64,000 bases of DNA from Isoetes taiwanensis (taxonomy: Eukaryota > Streptophyta > Lycopodiopsida > Isoetales > Isoetaceae), in the NCBI GenBank assembly GCA_021234155.1, contig JAJEKV010000062.1:1074261-1138260 (forward strand), read 5' to 3'. Shown in pieces: positions 564 through 55,754 of the stretch. The notes under the pieces were generated by a model. The model worked only from the letters and a program-made list of their open reading frames with translations. It was not told the DNA's origin and ran no database searches. The position numbers were made by a program, and so were the translations under genes. Every line of letters begins with the position of its first letter. Position 1 is the first letter of the stretch.

Positions 564-3500
564 GGTAACTGCGTCCCATATCTTTTAAGAAAAACGACCA
601 TTGAGATATTGTTGCAAAAGCTCAGGATCAGAACTGGCAAGCATCAGGCAGTGCTCTGGTTACACAGCCCAACGAGCAAACCATGTAGTGCAATGCTCTT
701 TCCAACATCGTTTCAAACGCTGAGGAGATTCAGGCATGGCAAGTGCAAGAACAGGATACCTATCATCATTCATGTAGTGCACCTTGCAGATATAGTGAAG
801 ATGGCGCTTCATGGCAGAATGTTGAAGAGGCCAAAAACATGTCTCTTGTAAGAGAAGAACAAAAATGTCAATGAGCCAAGTAGCTATCAGAGGAGCAAGA
901 CGTCTACCAATGAGCTATAAATCACAAATCAGTGTTAAGACTAAGAATCAAAGAGATGCATGTTGGCCTACTCTTTTGGCCTGCAACATAATTGCATGCT
1001 TAAAGGCTCCAACCCTAATTTTAGATCCATTCATGAACTAAAGGGGATAATCGAGAATCCTCTTTTAGAATGGAGTAATAAGGATGATCAAAAAGGCAAA
1101 GGCAATGGAATCTCAGCCAAATAGAATACATAATAATCCAAAAACTGGTGCAAGTGTAACATTGATAGAAAGGGCATAATGCATGGAAATAATACAATTC
1201 CGAGAACTCTCAATTCTAAATCAAGGGAAAGAGGCAATTGCCAAATTGACCCAGAAGAGGTATTGAATGCAATGGTTCTATGACAACATAGAATCATTAT
1301 TCTTGGGGAAGACGGGCTCTTTTGGTCTTATTTTTGCCATATTGCCTCTTTTACAGTCTACTATTCTTGGTGTTCTAGACTCTCTTCATCGGCCTTCTCT
1401 TGAACGTTTCTTCATTTTGCTTTTGTCTTTCTACTTTCTTAGTTTACTTAGTTCTATTGATTTCTCTTGAACGTTTCTTCTTTTTGCTTTTGTCTTTCTA
1501 CTTTCTTAGTTTGCTTAGTTCTATTGATTGATTTGTGTAGGTAGCATAGTTCGTAGAATTGGTGGTAGTTTTTAGATGGTTTTTATGGTAGTATCTTGCT
1601 CCTCCTCCTTTGTTTATGGCATGGTACAGTGGTACACTTGTCTAAGGATTGTCTGCTTGTATAAGGATTCTGGAATTTCTGTGTCGAAGTGGTTTTGGTG
1701 GATTCTGGAATTTCTGTGTCGAAGTGGTTTTGGTATTCCGTCATATAATTCTTTGCTCTTCTTTAGTTATTCCTTTGCTCTTCTTTAGTTATTCCAATTT
1801 TTTGCACGTACTGTAGGGCTCTTGGCGTCTATGTTTTTCCTTTCTTATTTCTCCTTCAACAAGAACTAGCTTTTTTCTGCTTGTTCGGAGGTTTCTTTCT
1901 GGTCCACCCAGAAGCCAAAGATATTTCCAGGTCTATCCGTTTCTTATTTCTTATTTTCTATAAAGATCGTTATGCTTTGATGGTGATCTTCTATGGAGTC
2001 CTTGTCTTGCGATCTCAAAATTTGAGATTACGGTTTTTTCTCGTTCCATCTTCAAACCTTTTCTGTTCGGACTTTTGGCTTTTTGATATGTGATAATTCC
2101 TGACCGTGATTTCTTAATCCAAATCTTGCTCTGAACTGTTTGGCCTTCCGGCTTTTTGTTATGTGATAATTCTTGGCCTTGATTTCTTAATCCAAATCTT
2201 GCTCTAAAATTTGTTTTTCTATCCAAATCTGGTTCTCTGTGGCATAACTTGTCCTTGCTGACACACTCCATGGCTGGGTGACCTTCTGGCTTTTCTTTGT
2301 TTTTCCAACTATTTTAAGCCCAACTGTTTGTTGCCATCACTTAATTGTGGTTTATTTATGGCTCCTTTTTCATTGCAACCAGCTATTGCCAGTTTCACAA
2401 ACATTCAACACTGCTGCAGAACTTGCCAATAAGTCTTTTCAATATTCGATGCTATCAGACTACCGAAAATAAAAAATCCAAGCAGGCTTTTCACTTTTTG
2501 ATGCTATGGCAGATTTCAAAGCCTTCATGCCATATGCTGCTGCTGTAGAATTCAAAGCCTTCTGCTTTGTCTACCGCCACTGCAAAATTTGGGCAGTCAG
2601 TCCAATATAAGATCTTCTATCCGCTGTTAGCACCTGCCAACTCCCCAATGTTACAACATTTAGAAGCTTTGCTTCTTTTTTGTGATCACTTTTCGATACA
2701 ACCCCCTTTCTAATATATTGTCTTCAAACATTTAGATCAGAATTGATGCCTTTTAAAATCATAGAGACTGATGATTGTGTCCCTTTTCAACAAAGTACTC
2801 TATCTAAGGTGAAATTTTTCACCATAGTTTTTTCTACAATTTATTAGACATCAAGTGTTGTGTGTTGTTTCTTCGGATCTTTTTCTAGATTTGCCTTTGG
2901 TCCATGGTTTTTTAGATTCTGCTTCTTATTGAAGCTTGTGATTTATATATCCTTTTAGAACAAATCTATTAAAACAATAATTTCATTTCATGCCTTTGGT
3001 CCATGGCTTCTTAGATTTTGCTTCTTATTGAAGCTTAAGATTTTTATATCCTTTTAGAACAAATCTATCAAGACAATAATTTTATTTCATGACCCTTCCA
3101 TGCAACAACATCCGTTTCATGTTTTTTGCTCTACGTCGACCTATATAGACTTTTTTTGTTATAGAAAGTGCACCCAAATTTCTTATAGGTATATTCTTCT
3201 CTGTTAGCCAAACAATGCGTATTTGTTGCCATCGCCTTATTATATTAAGATAATTTTTCTCTATTCCTTGCCATCAACTAGCTTTCTAACCTCTTCATTT
3301 GGTTCGAAGAGAGTTCTAGCCTCTTCATCTGATCTGATGTCTAATTGTGGGCACTCCCCTTTGCTTGATCAAGGTACTGGGTCGGCTCCATCTTGAATGG
3401 AGGGGACTACATGTATTGGGTTCATGCTTAGGGCTTAGGGTTTTTGCGGCACAATTTTGATCGGTCATATCTCTCACATCCGGTGTCATATTTTCATGTG

Positions 3501-4100
3501 CTTGGGCTTGTTGGAAAGCTGGTTCAGAGATCTTTCCAATGGTGTATGGTACCTACATGCTTGGCTTTGTTTATGTGTTCAAATTGGCACTTTTCCGGGC
3601 TGTGTGCTAGGGTTTCTGTGGCAACCTGTAGACACTTCGACGGACTGTATCTCTCACATCCGGTGTCAGATTTTTCATGTGCTTGGGCTTATTGGAAAGC
3701 TGGTTCAGAGAGCTTTCCAACGGTGTATGATACCTGCATGCTTGTCTTTGTTTTAGTGCTCAAATCTGCACTTTTCCGGGCTGTGTGCTAGGGTTTTGGT
3801 GGCAGCCGGTACACACTAGATATCCAGGAGTCTATTAGCCACTTTCCTTTTTGCCCCCTTTCAGCCCCTTTGCTCCCAACCCTAATTTGGGCAGTCAGAG
3901 CATACAAATTAATGTTGAACTAGGCTCCAACATCTACCTGACATTGCCATAGCCCAACCAACTGCCTCTTGGCCTTGCCTAGCAAGGCCACATGCACCGC
4001 CTACCTACCGCCTAGCCCCGCTGCACCGATAAGCCCCCCTGCCATAACCTACCTAAACCCCTGTTTGACCTGCCATGGCCCAAGTCATACCTCAAGCCAT
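564..4100. other. AT-rich DNA with nested short tandem duplications, no gene seen
   Basis: No convincing coding sequence. The stretch is built of local direct duplications of different sizes: a ~67-bp unit at about 1399-1530, a ~35-bp unit at about 1665-1735, a ~22-bp unit near 1750-1795, a ~75-bp unit near 2085-2215, a ~103-bp unit at about 2891-3092 and a 181-bp unit at about 3437-3800. The last contains the phrase 'ttggaaagctggttcagag', which recurs in diverged form near 21.79 kb. Plus-strand pyrimidine bias is strong from 1.3 to 2.6 kb. Confidence 0.6.
3437..3800 (+). repeat. Two-copy 181-bp tandem repeat
   Basis: The block with 'tctctcacatccggtgtca' at about 3470 and 3651 and 'gggctgtgtgctaggg' at about 3597 and 3778 is repeated with a 181-base offset. 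Both copies contain 'ttggaaagctggttcagag'. Similar but diverged wording appears at 21.7-22.05 kb. Both ORFs over it run through the repeat and are probably non-genic. Confidence 0.8.
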
Positions 4101-5699
4101 GGCCACAGACACAGTCCCGTGTGTGGACCCACACTTGGTTGGTGAGCTACCTCAGACCATAGCAACCCATCCTGGGAAGGCCCAAACACACCAACCACCG
4201 GTTGACCCCACGCAGTCGAGCCCTCCGGGAAGACCATGAAGCGGGCCACCAAGGAAGAGGCCTCGCAGGGGAGAGACGCCTTCCATGAAGAGGGAGGCCC
4301 GGCAAAGGCCCGGTCGACCCGACAGGCGGGCCACACAGCAATCCGCCCGGTCCAAAACCTTGGAGCCGCATCAGGCGAGGGTTGAGGCCAACAAAGTGCA
4401 CCTTTGCGTGCCTCCCCGCGAGGGTGGAGAACATAACATCTCTGGATGTTGCGCGGGCAGCTTGGTGCCGTAAAAACGACGGTAATCATGTAATGGAGGA
4501 TCGCTGCACGACAAAGTGCATGAAAGCATCCGGCTTGCTATAATTTGAAAGACAGCAATACCGGCAGAGCTTGCGATATGAGGGGGCGCGGTAGACACCG
4601 TGTTGGTAGCTATGGAAGCCGGGACGCAGACGAACCGGGTAGAGCAGGAGACACTGTAACCCCGCTCCTGATCCAGCCGAGGTTGAGGAGGCTAAGGCCA
4701 CGCGACGATGAGCACAGCCGCCTCCCCGCCGAGGTTGAGGAGGCCGCCATCTGTGAGACAAGGAGTCCAGCCGCTTTGGAAGCTAGCCAGCGTAACCGAA
4801 GGCCGGAGTAAGGATTTAACACGAGATCGGGAGCTGCAGGAGGGGCTTCGGCCGTTGCCCAGCAAGGCAAGGCCCTCCATGCCGAGGCATGAGCAACTCG
4901 CCATTGCACGCGGGAGATGGCAAGACATGACAACGCCCCGCAAGAGCCGAGCCCGGACTCTGCAGAATAGAAACCCGACAAAAAGAACACACCAACCCCG
5001 CCCACCAACCTCTGGGCGTCAACACAGAACACTGGCTGCCCGGACACATGGGATCACGGGCACCACCACCCGGCGCCCCCTGACCTATGCCTCACCCACC
5101 TCAACCAACACACAGTGCGGCCCCAATCGAACTCCGTGAACGAGGCATGCAAGAGCCGCAATGTGGTAGTCGGAGGGCCGGACGAGGAGTCGAGAGAACA
5201 TCTCACTTCCGGCTCGGACCACCGGATCTTGGACCGGATGATGTTCCCAAAGCACAGTGACCATTGTAAAGGCGAGTCGTCATGGAATTCAAATGCCCTG
5301 ATCGCCCCGGTGGTCATCTTCCGCGATTGAGGCGTGCGGGCGGGTGGCCATCTAGCGTCGAGGCCGGAAGTTGAAGGGGGCGGCTCATGCGTTGATCGAG
5401 ACTTGACCCCAAAGACAAGAGAGACCAAGGCGTGAGTTGGCCAAAGTCGAGGGCTACGCCTTGGACATGGAGGGGCAGCGGGGCTGGTCCGGGAAGGATG
5501 CGGAATTCGTGCAGACAAACAGGGATGCGAGGCACTCGCCCCTCGAGTCCCTCCGAGGGGGGCCCCGCGCAGTGCATCCACATCTTCCGCTCCCCCAGGA
5601 CCACCACTACCACCGGACCTGAAGTGGCGATGCCCGCCACTAAATAGGGATCGTGCCTCGGGCGGTATCCCGGAATTGCCGTGGCTTCCCATGGCGTAA

Positions 5700-6380
5700 G
5701 GGGACGATCTCAATTCCATCGCCATGGACATGGACCTTATCTTCCTCATGGAAACATGGGAACATGCTGGTCACAGGCTACCTGATTTGCCAGGATACCA
5801 GCGCTACTCCGTCTTCAATGAGTGCACCGGGAAACGAGGACACGGAGGAATTGCGTGTTACTACCAGACAGCCTTGGCCCAATCGGTCTCCCTGTGCAAG
5901 GCAGACAGGCACAACAGATACCTGTGGGTACGAGTGCAGAACAGCGATGGCAGCCCTCTCTTTGTGGCGGCTTGCTACTTCCCACATACCGAGAGCAACT
6001 TTTACCACACGCACTTGGATGTGGACAGACAGGAGCCCTATGTCGATCTATATGATGACATACAACATTACAGACAATTGGGCAAGGTCATGTTGCTTGG
6101 AGATTTCAATGCGCGCACAGGGGCAGAGCAGATGGACCCCGCAGAGATGGTTTGGCCAAGGGCGTCAGATGACAGCCAGGTGACACGGTATGGCCGGCAG
6201 CTGCTGTTGCTGGGCAGTATCTTTGACCTGGTCATTTGCAATGGGCTAGCACAGTGGCCGTCCTCCAGCCGCTTCACTTGTAGACAGGAGAACCAGGCAC
6301 GGTGGTGGTGGATTACGTGCTAGCAGACGAGCAATGCCTACACTTGATCACTCGCCCGGTGGTCGGAACGAGGAAGTAGA
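5700..6380 (+). pseudogene. LINE ORF2 endonuclease domain
   Basis: Reading from the ATG at 5724 gives an apurinic-like endonuclease of the exonuclease-endonuclease-phosphatase fold, which nicks target DNA for reverse transcription. Visible motifs are M-E-T-W (catalytic Glu region), G-G-I-A-C-Y-Y, L-G-D-F-N-A-R-T-G (~6099-6120, the Asp/Asn motif) and S-R-F-T-C ahead of a tryptophan-rich segment. A frameshift near 6300 moves the V-D-Y-V-L-A-D motif (catalytic Asp) into another frame, so the domain is interrupted at its end. The upstream part of ORF2 (5.65-5.72 kb) is also frame-broken. Confidence 0.8.
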
Positions 6381-41366: not shown

Positions 41367-41371
41367 AAGGT

Positions 41372-43030
41372 TGTGACGTTCCAGACGATTATACCTGTCC
41401 CCGTGATCGCGATATCAGATCGCTGCCACGCCGCATTACGCCACTCGACCGACGCGGTACGCTTAACGCAGTAGCCGTGGGTAGCCCTAGGGGGCAACGT
41501 GCCAGAAATATGTGTAACTATTAATGTGCACATTTTCCAATGTACACATTAATGTGGGCACACATTTCCATGTGGTCACTTGATGCCAAGTGGGCCACAC
41601 CCATAGGTGCAATTAATGTGCACATTTTCCAATGCACATTAATGTGGGCACACATTTCCATGTGGGCACATTTTGCCACCTAGCCATTAAAGGCAAGTGG
41701 GCCCATTACCAATTATCCCACATGCCTAAAGGGGATAATTGGAAACCCTAGCCAACCCCTTGTCTATTAAGGGAGGGAAACCCTAACTTGCCCAATTTTC
41801 GTTTCTAGGGTTTTAGAACTCTGTTCTGGCTGCCTCAACAGCCAAAACCGCCTCCCAGACTCTGCCTGAGAGGTTTGCACCATTGGTTTCCCCTTGATTC
41901 GAAGCGCCAAACAGATGGTCGAAGCTCAGTCGAGGAGCCACTCAAGGATCAGGTATTTGGCCAATTAGATAGTCTAAACCCTATTTCAGTCATAGAATCA
42001 GTAGGTTTAGCCTATTAAATTGCCCATAGCAGCCTTCTAGATCTCTAGATACCAACCTCTAACTAAAGAACCTAACTTTATGATGTAGATTAGATATAGT
42101 TCTTTAGTTCCTCTGTGATGTATGTGGATGATGTATCTCTATGAACTCCTTGTATTGGGAAGGGGGGTAGAGACCTAAAGCTTGGTAGTAGATGCTCCTA
42201 GAGTAGCCTCTCTAGCACACTATAGATTCGGCCTGTGTACAAGAGCCACACCAGGTTGTGGGTGAAGGGGCCAGACTGGCTAAGAAGGAGGTTCATGTCC
42301 CGACTCCTGAAAGATCCCTCTGGTGTGTAAGGCCTACCAGGGATCATTGTGACTAGGTCTAATGGCTCACCACTGAGTGCGGGTGAGGCATGGACTCAAC
42401 ACCCGTGAAGTGGTGTACACTTTCCAAAGGGTTCACCGAATACGGGCAAAGGGCCCTCTAGTCACCTTGAGCTCCAAGATGTAGACTTCTGGAGGGAGTG
42501 ATCCCTTCCTGCCCCATCGGAACTGGGAGGATGAAGCCCAGGAATAGCCCTTCTGGCTATGCATCCGGCGGGCTACAGTCAGGTCCCGACGCTTTTCAGC
42601 CTACTCTGCAAAGTGTGCACAGGAGGGGCGGATGGAGTGGACAACCCTATGCCATGTTCATATGCCAGCCCAATCCATTGCCATGAATTCTCGCCAAGAA
42701 TGAACTCGAGACCCCCGCCGGGCCATCCCCTTGAGTCCGAGCCTTGGGTAGAACTCCCCATATGTATTGTGCTCACCTTGTTTATGCAGATGTGATGGAC
42801 CACCCCTCGAGGTGGATATGTGCTTATGTTATATACTGACATGTATGTTTACGCTTCCGCAGCTAGGTAGGCCCTGAGGGAGACGGGGTAAAATGACCCC
42901 TTCACTCTTCCCACTGGAACCAGTCACGGTCGCAGTGTTATGTGGAGGGCCCTGTATCGGCATGGAGCTGGTATGGGGGAGGAACTCCTGTTTGTATTGA
43001 GAGCACCTTATACGAGTAGGGGACGTCACA
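41372..43030 (+). repeat. 5' LTR of the chromovirus
   Basis: Starts TGTGACGT and ends ACGTCACA, an 8-base inverted end with the canonical TG...CA. It matches the 3' LTR over its length except that it lacks about 880 bases present there: its 'cttaacgcag|tagccgtggg' (~41470) joins the points at 53070 and 53947 of the 3' LTR. The internal open frames are not genes. Confidence 0.9.
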
Positions 43031-43032
43031 GA

Positions 43033-43044
43033 GGTATCAGAGCC
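43033..43044 (+). promoter_or_regulatory. Primer-binding site, initiator-Met tRNA
   Basis: GGTATCAGAGCC two bases after the LTR end; this is complementary to the 3' end of plant initiator-methionine tRNA, the usual primer of plant Ty3/gypsy and Ty1/copia elements. Confidence 0.85.
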
Positions 43045-43234
43045 ATGTTCTTGGAGACCAAGAGCAAAGCACTGGCCATGTTCCCAGTAGTACTAACTTG
43101 ATAGGATCCTTAAACCTCGAAAAATGGGAAATTTTTTTCTCATTTTTGTAGTTTATGCTAAGCTAGTAACAGTTAAAAGGGATAAAAACGTAAGAAGACT
43201 AAAATTGGTGAGCCAACATCCAAAAAGGAGGGTG

Positions 43235-43502
43235 GTCTCACACGTCGCGCCAGGACAGGAAATGAGATTTTCATTTTCGGGCTGGGCGCAACGTGTGAGA
43301 CATTCAGCTTAAACACACCAAAAAGTTGTAAATTGCAGTAAAATAACTTGATAATTCTAAATTAGAGCTAAGAATCAGTAGAATTAGCATGTTACATGTT
43401 CAAAAAGTACAAAATTTGGTAGTGGGCCCCACCATGTCTCACACGTCGCGCCAGGACAGGAAATGACTTTTTCAAAATCGGGCTGGGCGCAACGTGTGAG
43501 AC
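43235..43502. repeat. First pair of TCTCACACGT hairpins
   Basis: Two hairpins, 43235-43301 and 43436-43502. Each starts GTCTCACACGTCGCGCC and ends GGGCGCAACGTGTGAGAC, with arms of about 30 bases and a short A/T-rich loop (aaatgagattttcattt and aaatgactttttcaaaa). The loop sequences change in a compensating or tolerated way while arm bases stay. They lie 80-350 bases upstream of the TATA box at 43578. Confidence 0.9.
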
Positions 43503-43684: not shown

Positions 43685-44922
43685 ATGATGGCCCGCACAA
43701 AACAAACTGCTCGGAAGCCTCGTGGGAGCGAATCCTCCAGCGCCAGCGGTTCTGGCCTTTTTCAGAGAGTCCTTCAGGAACGCCTTTTCCGGGAAGGCGA
43801 ATCTTCTTCGAGCGAAGATGCAGGATCGGATCGGAGCGACCACACTGAGATCATAGACGACGACCGACCAGACATCATGCATCAAATCCTCGAGGAGATC
43901 GCAGAGGAGGAGGGAAGGAGCAGGGAGCAAAGGGAGCAGACAGGGCAGCCAATAGCCGAGGAGCAACACCAGACTGAGACCCACATGCAGGAGGAGCAAG
44001 GGAGAGAAGAGCAGCAGCCGCCGAAGCTCACCCCGGATGAGGAAGCCGATCTTGCACGCTTCATCAGCAAGTATGAAGCCAAAGAGCCACGGAGCAGAGG
44101 ACTAAGAGTCGAAGACGACCCACCACAACCAAATGGGCCAAAGAAGAGAAAGGCCAAAGCCATCAAGGCAAAGCGGCAGAAACTTGTGAAGGTCGTGAAG
44201 CGAAGCAGGGGCCCCGCCATCAACGAACCATCAGCGAAGAGACCCCGCCTTCCACCGACGACATTCTGGACGACGACATACATCCCCAACCCGAGGGGGC
44301 GAAGCTCTTCAAAACCCCACCTGCGGAGAAGGAGGTACCCGGCAGTGGCACCCGAGGAAGATCAGGCCGGGCAGACACCGGCCCCCCACCTTTTCCAACG
44401 GGATAGGGTTAAAGCCCCGCCACCACAACGGAGGCGACGGATAGACCCGGCCAAGGTCTATCGAAGAAGATCAAGGAGCACAACGCTGCACATGGTGAAG
44501 TGGGAGGCATACAATGCCTACTATCGAGCACAGTGGTAAGAACAATCGGCGACATCCGACAAGAAGTCGACCTTGAAACCTCCGCCACCCAGCCCAAGCC
44601 TCCCCGAAAGCACCGTGGGAAGAAGCGAGCAAGAAGAAGAAGTTGAGGACGAGCTCTCAAGGAGATCCGCCACTTCCAGAAGAGTTACGGACTCTTGATC
44701 CCCCGGGCGCCGTTCCAGCGCTTAGTCCGTGAAGTCATGCAGGAATACAACACGGACATGCGAGTAACCGACAAAATGTTGCTGTGCCTATAGGAGGCAG
44801 CAGAGGCAAAGATAGTGCAGCATTTTGAAGATTCAACGGCCTGCACAGTGCACGCGAAGAGGGTTACCCTCATGAGGCAGGATATGTATCTTGCCAGGCA
44901 CATCAAGGGAGAACGCCCTTGA
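43685..44922 (+). pseudogene. Histone H3-like protein with very long tail, inside the chromovirus
   Basis: The first frame (43685-44537) encodes 284 residues beginning M-M-A-R-T-K-Q-T-A-R-K-P-R-G. After the second Met this is identical to histone H3 residues 1-9, including K4 and K9. The second ATG has the better context (A at -3, G at +4). A long charged, disordered region follows, with acidic and Lys/Arg-rich blocks. Near its end, A-K-V-Y-R-R-R ... L-H-M-V-K-W-E-A-Y resembles a chromodomain strand. In the next frame, 44653-44919 is a histone H3 fold: [34 protein letters not shown], about 48 of 89 positions identical to H3 by hand count. Loop 1 has H3 length; I-P-R-A-P-F and L-M-R-Q-D look CENH3-like. 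Breaks: a frameshift around 44537, TGA at 44644, TAG at 44791. Confidence 0.85.
44653..44922 (+). pseudogene. Histone H3 fold domain
   Basis: Helix alpha-N to alpha-3 of H3 in one frame, interrupted only by TAG at 44791-44793, which occupies the position of the conserved glutamine in the H3 'A-L-Q-E-A' motif (here C-L-*-E-A-A-E-A). It ends K-G-E-R-P and TGA, the canonical H3 C-terminal position. The histone-histone contact residues His and Asp of the four-helix bundle (H-A-K-R ... M-R-Q-D) are kept. No introns. Confidence 0.9.
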
Positions 44923-45065: not shown

Positions 45066-45330
45066 GTCTCACACGTCGCGCCAGGACAGAAAATGAGAAT
45101 CTCATTTTCGGGCTGGGCGCAACGTGTGAGACCATGCCCAAAAGTGCCCAAAACAGCTCCAAATCGACCAAATAAGGGGTCAATTCTGCCTAACTCGACG
45201 AGTTTAGTGGAATTACAGCCTTAGATCACCCAAATTGAGTAGGTCTAGCCCAATTAGGACCCATGTCTCACACGCCGCCAGCCAGACGTAAAATGAGATT
45301 CTCAAAATCGGTCGGCGCAAACGGTGAGAC
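45066..45330. repeat. Second pair of TCTCACACGT hairpins
   Basis: Hairpins at 45066-45132 (close match to the first pair) and 45265-45330 (more diverged: GTCTCACACGCCGCC ... GGCGCAAACGGTGAGAC). Spacing between the two (199 bases) equals that of the first pair (201 bases), so the pair was duplicated as a unit. It lies 180-445 bases upstream of the TATA box at 45511. Confidence 0.9.
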
Positions 45331-45510
45331 CTCGCACCATTTTCTTCACCAAATGATCTCCAGCTTTGCAATAGGTTCATTAGTTGTTCTTAGCATGCTT
45401 TAAACCAAAAATTAGCCTCCAAACACTCAATTGCACCTCCTAATAGGTCGGTCGAATCGCCAACTCCAAGGAATTCTAGGTCATCCAAAAATTAGGGTTT
45501 TCCACTTTTC

Positions 45511-45634: not shown

Positions 45635-46405
45635 ATGACCACCGCCGACTTCAAGCGATGGTACAAATACAAGACCCATGTCGCCGAGGCGGATGTCAAC
45701 GACATCTTCCAAGTTTTGGGAAAGAAATTGATATCCAAGCCACGCTAAATGCAACCCCAAAGATACGTGCAAGTGCTAGCAGAGTTTCAAGCTAGGGTAG
45801 GACCCTCCCTTGTTCATGTTCCCCTTGCATAGGATATTTTGTTCCCCGCCCATCCTTTCAAGCGCCTTTGGAGGATGTCCCCAACATCGCCAAGTACCTA
45901 ACCAACAAAGCGCAAAGGCTGCCAGATTACATGGTCCTTACAGCCAACAGGACCAAGCACTTCTCCTACACCGCGGCCTTAGCCATTTTTTTATCCCACC
46001 GTGCCGAAAACCCAATGGGGGCAACCTCTATCCCTCCGATGGAGGTGGACCCCATAGCAGTGCAGGAAGAAGAGCAGATGCGTTTGCAATATCAGCAAGA
46101 GCAGGAAGGAGAAGACGAAGAAGAAGAGGAGTCCGACGAGCACTCGCAGGAGGAACGGCAACAAGCGTAATCAGAGATGGCTTAACTTTGAGCAGAGCCG
46201 CGTAACATCGATTGCTTCCTCACTGCTAGGCATCACAAGCCTAGCCCCAATCATCATCAACCGAGAGGAGTAGTTACCCTCAACATCCGTAACCTTCCCC
46301 GAAAGTGCAGAGGGGAGCTCGATTGGACGAACTACTCCACCAGCTACGGGCAGCCGACTTGGACGACTTCATCGTCCGGGGAGCCCCTGACTTTCCGCCC
46401 AAGTG
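45635..46405 (+). pseudogene. Second accessory ORF of the chromovirus, family unknown
   Basis: Starts M-T-T-A-D-F-K-R-W-Y-K-Y-K-T-H-V-A-E-A-D. TAA at 45746 and TAG at 45830 interrupt an otherwise plausible frame (both could derive from Gln codons by C-to-T), a frameshift follows near 45866, and 45868-46170 continues with L-E-D-V-P-N-I-A-K-Y-L, L-P-D-Y-M-V-L-T-A-N-R and an acidic Q/E-rich tail (E-E-E-E-S-D-E-H). Near 46310-46405 another frame gives L-D-E-L-L-H-Q-L-R-A-A-D-L-D-D-F and a stop. I looked for H4, H2A and H2B motifs and found none. It might be a second captured host gene or an extended gag-like product. Its promoter module duplicates that of the H3-like ORF. Confidence 0.5.
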
Positions 46406-47460
46406 AGGGAAGCCGACACTTACACAGAGAGTCGACTTCGCATATCCGTGCCTACAAAGAAAGATCGTGCAAATGATGGACGAGCGAGAGCCGCCAACAG
46501 AGGAGGAGTTCCTCGCCTCCGTGAACGATGGGGATCCGTGGGGAAGACCACAAGCATTTTAATGCCGAGGCCTTCGACACCACCTCCATCAAGAGGAGCA
46601 GAATCGACCTCAGCGAAGTCGACTCCACAATTGAAGACCACCGACCTCACCGAAATAGAAGTCGATCTTTAATACGGAGGCAATGTGGCTCGAGGCCAAA
46701 CAAGCGAGAGGTTTCAAACGACGACAATGACAGTCCCCGAGGTACTACCGCCGCCGCCGCTAGATGGGGAGAATAGCGGTAATCAACCGCAAGTTCAGCC
46801 CCCCGTGAGGTGAAGAAGGAGTATTCATGCCGATTGCACTCTCGTGCTTCTAAGCAGGCATGCTCGCGATAGCGCCAAATGTCGACTACGCCGTCCCGGG
46901 TCAAGAGGGCAATGGCACTTGACCTCTTTCGACTTCGCCATACCCCATCGACGCCAGCGAGATTACGGTCACCGCAGCCCTTACATCCAACCGGGGTGGA
47001 AGAGCCGGTGAGAGCCTTTGCGTATGCTCGCCGCCAGTAAGCATCAGAACTTGGGTCATTCTAGGAACGACCCAAGTTAAGAAGTTCCTTGAGGACAACC
47101 CGTCGTCACCGGGCATTTCAAGATTAGTTAGACTCTTGATCCCTGAGACTTTTTGTACTAAAAATATTATATAATATATGAATATAATCTCTGCATAGCA
47201 CTTTAAATGTTTTGTTGATATATTTTTGCCCCACAACTATACCAACAAACATAAACAATGCAAGAGAACAAGGAAAACTAACCATATAGCCATGAACTAC
47301 TTGTGTATGCGCTAGAGGCCTAGGCTCGGGGAACGACAATGCCAAGACCTTAGGGAAGAAATGCACCCCCCTGCACTCCACCCCCGGCAAGGAACCTATT
47401 TGAAGATATGGAACCCATGACCCCAGAGGAAGAGATATCCCGATGAGGACGGACCTTGAG
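46406..47460 (+). other. Decayed coding-like stretch before gag
   Basis: Short frames in changing phases, e.g. M-M-D-E-R-E-P-P-T-E-E-E-F-L-A-S-V (~46475), S-I-K-R-S-R-I-D-L-S-E-V-D (~46590) and P-P-P-P-L-D-G-E-N-S-G-N. A tract 'aaaatattatataatatatg' lies near 47158-47180. Acidic/proline-rich composition suggests former protein-coding DNA, but I can assign nothing. Confidence 0.35.
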
Positions 47461-47507: not shown

Positions 47508-48590
47508 ATGCTCAACCGCCACAAGCATCAGCTCGAAAAACAGAAGGGACAAGAAGAGGAGCAAGAGAAGAAGATCCCCAGCTCGACCTCCTCCGACTCA
47601 AGCTCGAGTCGACCGACCGAGGAAGAAGAAGAGCAGCCCAGACCTAACAGACGCAAGGCAAAGGAACACCAAGAGGAAGGCGAGGGAACACCCCGATGGA
47701 TCGACAAAGAGACACCAGTGGCCTCCGACTACCGTAAGAAGGTAGATTCCGTGATTGGGCAATGTATGGAAGGCCCAGAATCGAATAGTTCTCTGGGAGA
47801 ACAGTCGATTGGAAGCAGAGGCATGGTCGGACTAAATGAGTGAGTACCTGCAATGCTTATGGCATGAAGGATAAAGACAAAGGAAGAGTGGCAAATGTAG
47901 CCAACTTGAAAGGAGCCGCACGGATTTGGTGGAAGGGTTATGCAAAGGCACATGGCTTGAGCAGGATGCTTGTAAGTTCGTGAAGTTTGCTAAAGCCTTC
48001 AAACGCCATTACGCCCCAAGGGAACATAAGTCTAGTATGATGCAAAGAGCTTCTACGTGTGCTGCAAAGAAGGCAACAAATCAGTCTGTAAGTATACAGA
48101 GGAATTCATGAGACTGAGGTCAGATGAAAAAGTAAATTGGGTGAGAAGCATGCAAGAGAAAGCTATATTGAGGGGTCAATGAGGAGATCCGCAAGTTTGT
48201 GAGGGCAATAAACCCTAAGACAAGATCGTAAGGCAGTCCAAGGCTATAAGCTTGCAAGGGACTGACCTCGTAATAGCGGGCGAGGGCAAAAAGATTTCCG
48301 TGACAAAGGCAAGGCGACAGAAGCTATAGCCCTAGAGCAGCCAAATTCCCAGTCCAAATTTAGAGCCCCATATGGTGGCAAACTGGGAAACAAACAAAGA
48401 GAAGAAGCAGTGTGTCCTTCAAGGACAAGCAGAGGGGTCAAACTACTCCAAAGCAAAGGCGATCCTTTTGCAGCGATGCCCAAGGAAAAGAGACAGAGTG
48501 CATAGAAAAGCAAAATTTTGTTTCAAAAAAGCTTCCAACATAGGACAAATGAAACCCGCCTCTACGCCATGAATGCAAATACTTAGCGGA
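47508..48590 (+). pseudogene. Gag of the chromovirus
   Basis: The first 111 codons are low-complexity and charged (S-S-T-S-S-D-S-S-S-S, E-E-E-E-E-Q). The capsid-like Retrotrans_gag region follows in shifted frames: N-L-K-G-A-A-R-I-W-W-K-G-Y-A-K-A-H-G (~47906-47957), F-A-K-A-F-K-R-H-Y-A-P-R-E-H-K (~47985-48027), then K-S-V-C-K-Y-T-E-E-F-M-R-L-R (~48080-48122). A possible degraded zinc knuckle (C-F-K-K-A-S-N-I-G-Q-M-K) lies near 48520. Gag packages the RNA. At least three frameshifts. Confidence 0.75.
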
Positions 48591-48591
48591 G

Positions 48592-49254
48592 TTGGGAGAT
48601 TGGGACACTCTGTCTGACGACGACGGCGAGGAAGCCCACGACTACATTCAGGGTGAGTGTCATATCTTTGCCGCAATAGATACAGAGCAAGCAGAGAGCC
48701 AATATAAAGTAATTTCCACAATAGGGAAGGCCAAGGCCAAGTCCTTCATAGTCTTGATAGACTCAGGAAGTAGCCATAACTTTGCATCCCCCAGAATGGT
48801 CCAAATGTTGAAGTTGAAACCACTAAAGTCAAAGCCAAGGCCTGTTGTCTTAGCAAGTGGTGCAGTAAGGCAGATGGCAGGCAAAAGAATTAACTTCGAC
48901 ATCGACTTGCCAGGGATTAAGATCCAGATGGGAGCAGAAGTAATGGGCATTGGCAAGTACGACCTGATCATAGGAATGGAGTACCTTGGACCAGCAGGGG
49001 CCATTATCGATTGTGGAAAGCGGAAGGTGACCTTCCCAACACCCGACGGCAAGATCATTGAGATCACAGGTAAAGAAGTTGTTCCCATCATGCGTTGTAT
49101 GTCTTCTAAGCGAATCGCTCAAGTGCATCAAGAGCGAACAGTGGCATACATCTTCAAGCTTGAGATTGACGAGCCCGGGCGAGGAAAGCAAAGAAGACAG
49201 AGTGCTCGCCAAGTTGCCGAAGCAAATAGCTCAGCTGATCACGGAGTTCCATGA
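48592..49254 (+). CDS. Aspartic protease region of pol
   Basis: A 220-codon open frame, the longest undamaged part of pol. Catalytic motif L-I-D-S-G-S-S-H-N-F at ~48756-48785, flap-like G-A-V-R-Q-M, and the second conserved block D-L-I-I-G-M-E-Y-L (~48963-48989). This is the retropepsin-type protease that matures Gag-Pol, in its usual place ahead of RT. The frame ends by a shift near 49254. Confidence 0.85.
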   Translation: MGDWDTLSDDDGEEAHDYIQGECHIFAAIDTEQAESQYKVISTIGKAKAKSFIVLIDSGSSHNFASPRMVQMLKLKPLKSKPRPVVLASGAVRQMAGKRINFDIDLPGIKIQMGAEVMGIGKYDLIIGMEYLGPAGAIIDCGKRKVTFPTPDGKIIEITGKEVVPIMRCMSSKRIAQVHQERTVAYIFKLEIDEPGRGKQRRQSARQVAEANSSADHGVP

Positions 49255-49990
49255 TCTCTTTCCGTGATGAGATCAAACAGCTCACCAGATAGGGGAGTCG
49301 AAAGTGTGAGATAGCACTCGAACCGAGCAAAGCCGACAAGTAAGGCTCCATACGTAATGACGACGCAGAGTTGACGGAGCCGAAGAAGCAATTGTAGTGG
49401 AGTTGCTCGACCTAGGCTTCATTAGACCTAGTGTCTCGCCATTTGGAGCCCATTCTCTTTGTAAAGAAGAAGGATGGCGCTTTAAGAATGTGCATAGACT
49501 ATAGGCGCTTGAACAAGCACACCATTAAGAACAAGTACGCCCCCCCCCGTGATCGTATTTAATTTGATGGATCAACTCCAAGGTGCAAAGGTCTTCCAAA
49601 ATCGACTTAAGGTCGCTTATCATCGATCGATAAAGGAAGAAGATATCCATAAGTCCGCCTTCTAACGCGGTATGGGCATTATGAGTTCACGGTAATGCCT
49701 TTCGCTTATCGAATGCCCCGCCGACGCTCATGAGGCTCATGAACGACATCTTCGTGGGAGTTTTGAGACACCTTTGTGATTGTATTCTTTGATGACATTT
49801 TGGTGTATAGCGATCCCTTGAAGAGCACGCATAACACTTAAGGAGAGTGCTAGAGAAGTTGAAGAGGCACCAGTAAATGCCAAGTTGTCGGGCGTCACTT
49901 CGCAAAATGGGAAGGTGGAATACCGTGGTCATGTGATCTCGCAGTAAGGAATCTCGACGGATCCCCGCCAAGATTGAAGCCGCCATTCAA
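49255..49990 (+). pseudogene. Reverse transcriptase of the chromovirus
   Basis: Fragments in several frames: [21 protein letters not shown], split here as F-V-K-K-K-D-G (~49458) and C-I-D-Y-R-R-L-N-K (~49491-49517); K-I-D-L-R-like block near 49600; and the catalytic V-F-F-D-D-I-L-V-Y-S (~49783-49812), intact. A run of nine C at 49544-49552 sits where sequence quality looks poor. At least six frameshifts. Confidence 0.8.
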
Positions 49991-50189
49991 AGGGCCGGGC
50001 CGAAGAATATGCATGAAGTCGGTTTTTCTACCAGCAGTGGTACTACAGAAGTTCGTGGAAGAATCTTTGCTAAGATAGCGCCCCGCTAACGACTTGACGA
50101 GGGTGGAGAAAGTGAAAGATTGGGCGTAGCATTGGCACAAGAAAGCCCGCTGTGGTTTGAATTGTTGAAGGAAGCTTTAACAACCGCCC

Positions 50190-50590
50190 CGCCTTAACCC
50201 CGCTGACCCTCGAGAAAGATAAGCTTGTAGCAACAGACGCGAGTAAGATAGCTACAAAAAGCAGCCCTCATGCAAGAAGAGCGCGTGGTAGCGATGATTC
50301 TAGGAAGATGAACGACGCAACGCCGCTTACCCCACCCACGCATCGTGAATTGCTTGCGGTTGTCGTGGCATTAAGAATTTGGAGGCACTACCTTTTGGGA
50401 AGGAAGTTCCAGCTTGGATACGCACTCATCGAGCCTCCAAGATGTATTCACGCGAACCACACCTCAACCCGAGGCGTAGAAGGTGGATGGAGTTCCTTGA
50501 AGAGTATGACTTTGATATAGTCTACAAGCCGTGGAAGCTCAATGTGGTAGCGATGCGCTTTCAAGGCATCCCCGACAACTAGAGTGCATT
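50190..50590 (+). pseudogene. RNase H of the chromovirus
   Basis: V-A-T-D-A-S (~50229, first catalytic Asp), then T-H-R-E-L-L-A-V-V-V-A-L-R-I-W-R-H-Y (~50338-50391, catalytic Glu helix), then in another frame S-K-M-Y-S-R-E-P-H-L-N and W-M-E-F-L-E-E-Y-D-F-D-I-V-Y-K-P (~50487-50534). This is the usual RNase H plus tether of plant gypsy elements, degrading RNA in the RNA-DNA hybrid. Frameshifts separate the pieces. Confidence 0.8.
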
Positions 50591-50779: not shown

Positions 50780-51490
50780 ACCAATCATCGTGTAAGGAAA
50801 TTGATCCTCCACGACACGCGACAACAAAATTCAATAGCCGGCCATGCGATTCATGAAAACATATTTCAAAGTGCGCAGCAGCCTATTATTGGCCAGAATG
50901 AAGAAGCAAGTAGCTCGCTACATCGAGAATGCCGCTTATGTCGCCAGACGAAGGCGAAGCAACTTCAATTCCAGTGAGCATTAGAGCCATTGGCGGTGCC
51001 AAACGCTAAGTGGGAGGTGATTAGCATGGATTTCATCACAGACTCCCAAGGACCGCAAGAGGGAAAGATGCTGATGGTAGTAGCCTCGATAAGTTGTCGA
51101 AAATGGCACATTTTGTGCCTTGCAGACCACGATACAGCCTATGGATACAAATGGGCTCTTCACCAAAGAGATTTTCGTGCTTCATGGCATGCCAAGGGAG
51201 ATTATCTCCCATGTGGATCCGGTTCATGAGTGCCTTCCGCAAGACCTCTTTACGACGATTCTCGACCAAGTTATCCATGAGCACGCATATCATCCCCGCA
51301 TCGATGGCCAAACGGAGCTTTACCAACAGATTTTAGAGGACATGCTACTTAAACTATGTCCGAATAAGCAAGGTATGTGGGAAGAATTTATTCACTTGGT
51401 GGAATTTGCCTACAATAGCACCAAGCGTGAATCATCCCAAATGTCGCCGCTTATGATTAATTACGCTATCGCTGTAACTCCGCATTAATT
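50780..51490 (+). pseudogene. Integrase of the chromovirus
   Basis: The HHCC zinc domain is recognisable (L-I/L-H-D-T-R ... A-G-H ... C-R-L-C-R-Q-T-K-A-K, ~50805-50960). Core: W-E-V-I-S-M-D-F-I-T (first Asp, ~51011), S-K-M-A-H-F-V-P-C (~51095), S-H-V-D-P-V (second Asp, in place of S-D-R-D, ~51210), H-P-R-I-D-G-Q-T-E (Glu, ~51291-51317), then E-F-A-Y-N-S-T. All three DDE positions can be located but lie in three frames. Confidence 0.8.
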
Positions 51491-51799
51491 TGGCACAACC
51501 CCGCGGTCAAAAGTGGAAGTTTCAAGCAGCCAGATGTTGGCCGATATGCGCAGCCTTGTGGAAGAAGTTCGAGGGTATTTGCTAGCAGCAAGAAGTCGAT
51601 AAAAAGCATCGCCGACAAGCATCGAACAAATGAGAGTTCAAAGTTGGAGATGATGTATGGCTCAAGATCAAGGTGAAGCAGCTAAGCTCGACCTGAATTG
51701 CAAGAAGCTTGCTCCAAGGTGGGCTGGACCTTCGTAATAGTCAAGAGAGTAGGTAATCAATCCTACAAGCTAGACTTGCCAAAGACACCTAAAGATTCA

Positions 51800-52035
51800 T
51801 AAGGTCTTCCACGTGAGTTTGTTGAAGAAGCACACTCCAAATCCGCACGGTCTTGGACTCTCAACGTTGTTGGAAATGACGGAGGAGCAAATTGAAATAG
51901 TTCCGCAATTGATTCTTGATAAAGCTTTCAAGAAAACGAGGAGATCGAATTCCTCCAAGATTTGGTCAAGTGGGGACACTTACCGCTGGAAGACGCGACA
52001 TGGGTACTTAAGAAAGATTTAGTGAAGCAAAGTAC
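51800..52035 (+). pseudogene. Integrase C-terminal chromodomain
   Basis: After V-F-H-V-S-L-L-K-K (~51806-51832) two frames complement each other: one gives I-V-P-Q-L-I-L-D-K (~51898), the other E-I-E-F-L-Q-D-L-V-K-W, L-P-L-E-D-A-T-W-V (~51943-52002). The V-K-W ... A-T-W pattern is the chromodomain core of chromoviruses, which steers integration to marked chromatin. Confidence 0.75.
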
Positions 52036-52960
52036 CACGCTTTATGGAGCAATGGGACGGCAAGGTCATCTCCCAAGAAATCGGCTCAGCATGTCGATTT
52101 GTGTAGATTAATTCTATGTTTAGTTAAGATTAATCTACGATGCAACCTACGCTTGGTATGGGTCGCATGCGTTGTTATCGGCGATGAGACCACTACGGTG
52201 ATCTCTAGGGCGTGGTATAATGTCAATGTAGGCATGACCGCTGCTTTCCTTTGGGCGAAAGTGGAAGGTAGATTAGAAAGTCTACTGTCCGACGGTAGAG
52301 ACGACCTCGAGAAAAGGAGGTCATGAAGGAATGCACCGATAGGAAAAGCACCTCTAGCCCCATATATGCTTTGATAGGAGGAATCGGCCTTCACGCCCAT
52401 ATACCGAAGGACCTATCCTCCACGCCGGGCAACTAGGGTGTAGGCATGAGCGCATATAGGCATATAGGTGTCGCCTCCACGGCCATAATGGAAGATTCAC
52501 CCTCTTCCTACGGAGATTAGCCATGCATCCATGTAGATAGGTGGGTGGTCACCATATAACCAAAAAATTTTATTAATAATTATAATGGTACTAACGTAGT
52601 ATCGACCGCAAGCAGCCAATAGAGCCTCGAGGGCAAGGAGGTCGAAGAAGTTTAAGACTTGCAACACAAATTTTGTTGGAATGTGTTGCAAGGAATGAAG
52701 AAGTACCTCTGGACGTTAATTTTAATTTTGATAAACTTAATTGTCATGTTAACTGAATTATTGAGTAATCTCTTTTAATGATGTTATGAATTGATAAGTT
52801 ATTTCATAATGTGATGGCGTGATAATGTCCTAAAAATATTACCTTAAGGTAATCTTAATAAATGTGTAAGTATTATAGTAGTTATAGTATGCATCAGGTT
52901 GATTGCAGGTTAGGACGATCCCAAGGTGGGGAGACCCACGATGTTGCGGACAGCATCATT
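52036..52960 (+). other. Non-coding 3' internal region
   Basis: Between the chromodomain and the PPT, no frame of interest. 'gattaattctatgtttagtt' / 'aagattaatctacg' near 52105-52140 is a weak inverted repeat. The PPT-like phrase 'aaggtggggaga' occurs twice (52922-52934 and 52962-52974). Confidence 0.5.
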
Positions 52961-52961
52961 T

Positions 52962-52975
52962 CAAGGTGGGGAGAA
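52962..52975 (+). promoter_or_regulatory. Polypurine tract
   Basis: 'caaggtggggagaa' directly before the TGTGACG start of the 3' LTR; this purine-rich run primes plus-strand DNA synthesis. Confidence 0.8.
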
Positions 52976-55517: not shown

Positions 55518-55754
55518 AAGGTAAAAGTCCGCTGACCGTGACCGTAAAGGTTTTTTTTTTTAATGAGAAATATGCTAAAAGCTTGGAACAATATCTATCC
55601 TGCCTTTGCTTTCTCAAAAGTGGATCTAGTACATTTTGAGATGTCTATCTTTTGATCCCTATCTATAGTGATCATCCAAACTATGTTCTTGCTCTTAAGC
55701 ACCCCCAAATTTACAAAAAGTGGAAATCAAGTGGCTTAAATTTTATTAAAGACC

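Follow-up and report, generated by a model that had tools for sequence, protein, structure and literature searches.

A chromovirus with a histone H3 core ahead of gag

The window, i.e., the whole stretch of 64,000 nucleotides of the Isoetes taiwanensis genome analyzed here, carries a Ty3/gypsy LTR retrotransposon, a chromovirus, with LTRs, primer-binding site (PBS), polypurine tract, and 5-bp target duplication. All its features lie on the forward strand. The 5′ LTR (41372..43030) begins TGTGACG and finishes CGTCACA, with identical ends in a second copy of the same family (L044/L047), and is followed by a PBS region (43032..43047) with TATCAGAGC at 43035 and TGGTATCAGAGC in copies L043, L044, and L072, which we take to be a tRNA-Met site. 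At the other end, the polypurine tract AGGTGGGGAGAA (52964..52975) immediately precedes the 3′ LTR (52976 to about 55517), which likewise starts TGTGACG. About 0.9 kb of other sequence splits this LTR after its first ~100 bases. When most of the LTR was compared, 1415 of 1530 ungapped columns were identical between the two repeats, and AAGGT stands on the outer side of both (41367..41371 and 55518..55522).

Between the LTRs, we identified remnants of gag, protease, reverse transcriptase (RT), RNase H, integrase, and chromodomain, in that order. The gag remnant (47809..48981) was found by tblastn with a gag-protease frame from a second family (family B, see below), and its end overlaps the protease. 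Matches to protease and RT (48694..49873; RVP_2, E=1.7e-10) are split over frames, as are those to the integrase (50927..51916), while RNase H (49822..50371) was placed by sequence match and the chromodomain (51906..52064) by a PF00385 match at E=0.0029, below the curated cut-off. Copy L044 of the same family gave RVP_2, RVT_1, RT_RNaseH_2, and rve in that order in a Pfam search, and a chromodomain could be recognized by eye at the integrase C-terminus in both families (L047 for the window's family, L045 for family B).

The gene of interest, ORF1, is located between PBS and gag, in sense with gag-pol. Its open part (43685..44539) encodes MMARTKQTARKP..., i.e., an H3 tail (MARTKQTARKP) followed by an insert, and the histone H3 core comes after it in another frame (44653..44922), terminating in HIKGERP with the last core codon ending at 44919 and a stop at 44920-44922. 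A preliminary description of this DNA had proposed the H3 tail, the frame-shifted core running to the H3 C-terminus, the placement between PBS and gag, the two LTRs, and a candidate target duplication, and all of these were confirmed. A 48-residue stop-free piece of the core matched PF00125 at E=1.7e-10. Since the core frame is interrupted twice, by a stop just upstream (44644-44646) and a stop within (44791-44793), the window ORF1 is a broken gene, a point that the preliminary description did not mention.

Related ORF1 genes across the genome

Genome-wide searches covered one I. taiwanensis assembly (1,658,258,908 bases, 1110 contigs). A query made of the window tail and insert, without the core, returned 163 matches from 137 scored candidates, which define family A. 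The preliminary description had named one finding that would reduce the ORF to a host pseudogene inserted once, namely its absence from every other copy of the element; instead, a fully specified 30-mer from the family A core matched 554 genomic places (302+252) with ≤3 mismatches, and its reversed control matched none. A one-off pseudogene insertion is thus ruled out by copy number together with selection (see below), and a contaminant contig is ruled out by probe matches on many contigs, including C907 (53 Mb) and C1018 (44 Mb).

We fetched the best 30 family A matches as loci (L009-L038), the window's own copy included. An open frame of >380 codons ending in the core was present in 18 of the 30, and 12, among them the window's own, were broken by this test. 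The open copies encode one protein: MARTKQTARKP, an insert of ~300 residues in which acidic runs and long basic runs can be seen by eye, and an H3 core ending GERP (Pfam Histone, E=3.6e-27). This is not the canonical H3 layout, where the tail is joined directly to the core in a protein of ~135 residues. In all 17 of the open copies chosen by the string TKQT, the tail retains K4, R8, and K9 and has S10 replaced by P; this choice selected for K4 but not for K9 or P10. The eighteenth open copy, L038, has no H3 tail in frame. Ahead of the family A core, the stretch KPHRYRPGTV is absent, and H3 positions 63 and 64 are occupied by P and R. One further observation concerns L047:1360-4138, where the L044 copy closes on its 3′ side with two successive LTR stretches, 92.7% and 86% identical to its 5′ LTR, in a nested or tandem arrangement.

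Four similar stem-loops flank ORF1 in the window, two per side and ~200 nt apart. Upstream are two of 67 nt (43235..43301, z -8.8 vs shuffles; 43436..43502, z -5.8), and downstream another of 67 nt (45066..45132, z -7.8) and a decayed one (45265..45331, z -2.9). They recur in other family A copies: with 3 of 30 loci left out because their orientation was not determinable, the four places in the other 27 yielded 22, 26, 20, and 22 stem-loops. Across 48 distinct 67-nt stem-loops, whose ends are set by the search pattern, pairing reached 0.944, compared to at most 0.936 in shuffles, but covariation was sparse. The stem-loops may perhaps have a role in RNA processing or packaging.

A canonical H3 query gave 150 scored matches out of 9093 candidates. 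Beyond canonical host H3, many of these matches, with identities of 70-85%, fall within open frames 400-500 codons long. Four such copies (L039-L042) read MA[NIP]TK..., then a front domain of ~200 residues, a basic region, and the H3 core, an arrangement that we call family B (Pfam Histone, E=2.5e-41). When one of these four served as query, 12,411 first-look candidates yielded 102 scored matches, every one at E<1e-198; 68 were stop-free over the matched stretch and 34 contained a stop. No recognizable H3 tail was found in family B. Copy L043 has TATCAGAGC at 2348, ORF1 at 2930-4318, and ORF2, a second pre-gag gene, next to it (4476-5921); gag and pol were looked for in the ~4 kb past ORF2 and not seen. 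Downstream of L039, L045 supplies gag with a zinc knuckle recognized by eye, protease, integrase, chromodomain, and a 3′ LTR match. RT was seen in no B copy read, L045 passing from protease to integrase, so that any autonomy of family B is putative. Two other features lie downstream of B copies, i.e., a different gypsy-like element on the minus strand of L046 (2888-6318), with pieces of gag, protease, and RT recognized by eye, and a TA repeat of ~137 bases (L043:8989-9125).

Type C is represented by one broken locus (L072), which contains, in order, PBS, ORF1 with a diverged front domain and an H3 core, ORF2, and gag. Its start, METPKQVYTRKPRYS, is by eye vaguely like the A tail. Four further short H3-like matches were resolved into three B fragments and one that led to type C. 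In B and C, front domains of other kinds stand where A has its tail and insert.

In the copies read of A, B, and C, ORF1 precedes ORF2 and gag, and in L043, L044, and L072 it comes directly after the PBS, the same-place pattern that the preliminary description had asked to see in other family members. ORF2, between ORF1 and gag, is common to all three; its remnants were located in the window by sequence comparison (46235..46954), and neither these nor the L043 gene (4476-5921) had a Pfam match above the curated cut-off. Families A and B share 76% identity over 129 residues of integrase, 53% over 153 residues of the protease region, and 25% over 228 residues of ORF2 (E=4e-9), and by these protein comparisons they are related elements.

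Outside this genome, the A ORF1 was compared with 5.8 billion proteins in search of relatives along its full length, giving 2775 matches among 7941 scored. The best 120 of the 2775 align over 29-54% of the query, and six of these relatives, when examined, each had at least two canonical H3 copies. For B residues 1-290, no relative at E≤0.001 was found among 2431 candidates, and neither the A nor the B ORF1 had a match in PHROGs. The solved structures that best match the ORF1 core are those of H3. Two AlphaFold models were poor (mean pLDDT 42 and 53), and the assignment of the H3 fold therefore rests on sequence.

Selection on the core and its histone origin

We then estimated dN/dS from open copies only, and only from the best-scoring ones. 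For the A core, the NG86 value was 0.050 over 17 open copies (0.049 over 18, with L038 added) and the ML value 0.064; over the same 17 copies, the tail stood at 0.105 (NG86) and the insert at 0.13-0.20 (NG86) and 0.190 (ML). The B core gave 0.037 by NG86 over 23 open copies (0.039 over 24, with L053 added) and 0.043 by ML, compared to 0.053 for the front domain and 0.11-0.23 (ML 0.144) for the remainder of the protein in those 23 copies. The test for purifying selection suggested in the preliminary description hence came out strongly positive on the core in both families.

A comparison between families points the same way. Between the B majority string and the single C locus, the front domain is identical at 61 of 194 positions (31%) and the core at 87 of 98 (89%). 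Of 98 core positions, B departs from host H3 at 12 and C at 13, and the two have in common the derived residues S86T, V89I, G102A, E105G, T107A, and I124L. At the DNA level, the B core is only 74% identical to host H3, so the conservation of the protein is not due to recency.

These data bear directly on the view that ORF1 is a functionless passenger, a host H3 retrocopy amplified along with the element. Decay is certainly visible, in the broken window copy, in 12 of 30 A loci, and in 34 of 102 B matches with a stop; yet a core dN/dS of 0.04-0.06 in two families, and a core still 89% identical between B and C while the front domain fell to 31%, make this extremely improbable. We conclude that ORF1 is almost certainly a conserved gene of the element. 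Given many copies, the same place in the element, and a preserved core with low dN/dS, an H3 gene was taken up by a lineage of chromoviruses and has been retained by selection.

Which histone gene was captured is a separate matter, and here the preliminary description, which had spoken of an H3/CENH3 gene, stands in part: capture is supported by the many copies, the position after the PBS, and the purifying selection, whereas the source gene may be H3 or CENH3. All CENH3 comparisons used one provisional A. thaliana CENH3 sequence. By sequence, B and the single C locus resemble H3, and B agrees with this CENH3 at 2 of 11 doubly changed sites. Family A is mixed: its core is identical to host H3 at 53 of 92 positions and to the same CENH3 at 50 of 93. 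Where A and CENH3 both depart from H3, they agree at 12 of 26 sites, compared to a mean of 1.5 and a maximum of 8 in 20,000 permutations that ignore how few residues these sites tolerate.

Family A might accordingly have taken up CENH3 independently of B and C, which would make two histone captures in the lineage and might direct A to centromeres. Beside the 12 of 26 agreeing sites, A and CENH3 group together in a core tree (UFBoot 95), but this tree has two long branches and a single provisional CENH3, so that attraction is possible, and the narrow residue tolerance overlooked by the permutations weakens the site count. Moreover, the loop-1 insertion and the RW motif of CENH3 are not present in the A core when it is aligned to that one sequence. 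A PDB search with A returned H3 chains, and the best 60 included no centromeric H3, which counts weakly against a CENH3 source: a control search with the CENH3 sequence itself also returned mostly H3, with two H3/CENP-A chimaeras above, and the result for A says little. On balance, we consider a second, centromeric capture unlikely.

Possible action on host chromatin and known parallels

Core positions that do not vary across host H3, six A copies, and four B copies include R69, R72, R83, C110, H113, K115, R116, T118, and D123 (H3 numbering). We take them to serve DNA contact and the H3-H3′ bundle, which favors retention by the core of both H4 pairing and DNA binding. The reading that we lean towards, by a modest degree of belief, is that an ancestor of this chromovirus lineage in I. 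taiwanensis captured a host histone H3 gene, that this gene became ORF1, first after the PBS and in sense with gag-pol, and was kept by selection, and that its product docks on or enters chromatin through H4 pairing. The ORF1 protein would go into the nucleus (basic runs in the A insert resemble nuclear localization signals by eye), its core would pair with host H4, and it would then either dock the element nucleoprotein on chromatin or join nucleosomes, aiding integration or expression. Weighing against this reading are the two poor structure models, the stretch missing ahead of the A core with its P and R at positions 63 and 64, the use of open copies for dN/dS, the B copies in which no RT was seen, and the single broken locus behind type C. 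For the single step of acting on chromatin through H4 pairing, we put the chances at about even from the sequence evidence. In family A, the tail, with K4, R8, K9, and P at S10, could in addition engage readers of the H3 tail, including the element's own integrase chromodomain; with B lacking a recognizable H3 tail, such a function cannot be general.

A stronger version of this proposal is that the lineage supplies its own H3 variant, which the preliminary description had suggested could mark or bind target chromatin. ORF1 and host H4 would form nucleosomes at the element or its targets, insert and tail would act as a private mark read by the chromodomain-bearing integrase, and the A core would have evolved, or been taken, towards CENH3. 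We regard this version as possible but doubtful.

Two other roles were weighed against docking on or entry into chromatin. ORF1 could be a packaging protein, with the histone fold and basic insert compacting RNA or cDNA in the particle or chromatinizing unintegrated DNA, host nucleosomes being left untouched. A place ahead of both ORF2 and gag in the copies read of all three groups would suit this role, as would the long basic and acidic runs seen by eye in the insert, but a zinc knuckle can already be recognized by eye in the B gag (L045), and the conserved H3-H3′ and DNA contact residues exceed the apparent needs of packaging, so that we hold this role to be improbable. Alternatively, ORF1 could be an anti-silencing decoy, its H3-like tail and core titrating H3 chaperones, K9 methyltransferases, or readers. 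The retention of K9 with P for S10 in all 17 open A copies picked by TKQT (the further open copy L038 having no such tail in frame) is what such a decoy might look like, yet the tail is not kept in B and has only a vague likeness in C, and the B core is nonetheless the better conserved; we think a decoy quite unlikely.

Chromoviruses are thought to target chromatin by reading it through their chromodomain. Plant chromoviruses with an integrase chromodomain or CR motif, and an assumed targeting preference, are described in PMC6317226 and PMC3059260, and the I. taiwanensis element resembles them as a Ty3/gypsy element with an integrase chromodomain. The available passages of both sources treat these elements as reading chromatin and mention no element-encoded histone, whereas the element described here also encodes a histone core. 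Extra ORFs are common in plant Ty3/gypsy elements, according to PMC6317226, and ORF1 is like its eORF-5′F class in being an additional forward ORF that precedes the polyprotein. That source calls eORF proteins highly heterogeneous, with 21.4% showing any CDD similarity, while here a recognizable core is conserved across families. In our searches of open-licence papers, we found no histone-carrying retrotransposon; the additional files of PMC6317226 may hold a histone match. The word “histone” is absent from the main text of two Isoetes papers (PMC8566536, PMC10541799).

The closest precedent found is H3L, carried by a hAT DNA transposon of Pyrenophora tritici-repentis, whose reference isolate has 26 H3L genes (PMC3538342). 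In both cases, an H3-like gene rides in a mobile element and multiplies with it. The H3L element is a fungal DNA transposon with TIRs and very similar, recently expanded copies, while ours is a plant LTR retrotransposon present in hundreds of copies, with measured purifying selection and with a long insert that separates tail from core. The window element has LTRs and pol, where the H3L transposon has a hAT transposase between TIRs. Retention of a chromatin gene by gypsy elements also has parallels: PMC5890265 reports KnitGypsy-Dnmt3 of Klebsormidium nitens, together with DNMT retrotransposons of Symbiodinium, with Ka/Ks < 0.2. Like KnitGypsy-Dnmt3, the quillwort element is a gypsy element that acquired a host chromatin gene and keeps it under purifying selection; in the former, a DNA methyltransferase lies inside the pol ORF, and in the latter the histone core occupies a separate pre-gag ORF. 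The H3L transposon thus sets an example of an H3 gene traveling with a mobile element, and the DNMT elements one of chromatin genes acquired by gypsy elements and retained under selection.

Taken together, these sequence patterns suggest a large family of quillwort elements with a home-made histone for dealing with host chromatin. By encoding and conserving an H3 core, an element would approach chromatin from the side opposite to chromodomain reading, and a core that stays conserved while the usual tail is moved or replaced would amount to a natural experiment in histone evolution.
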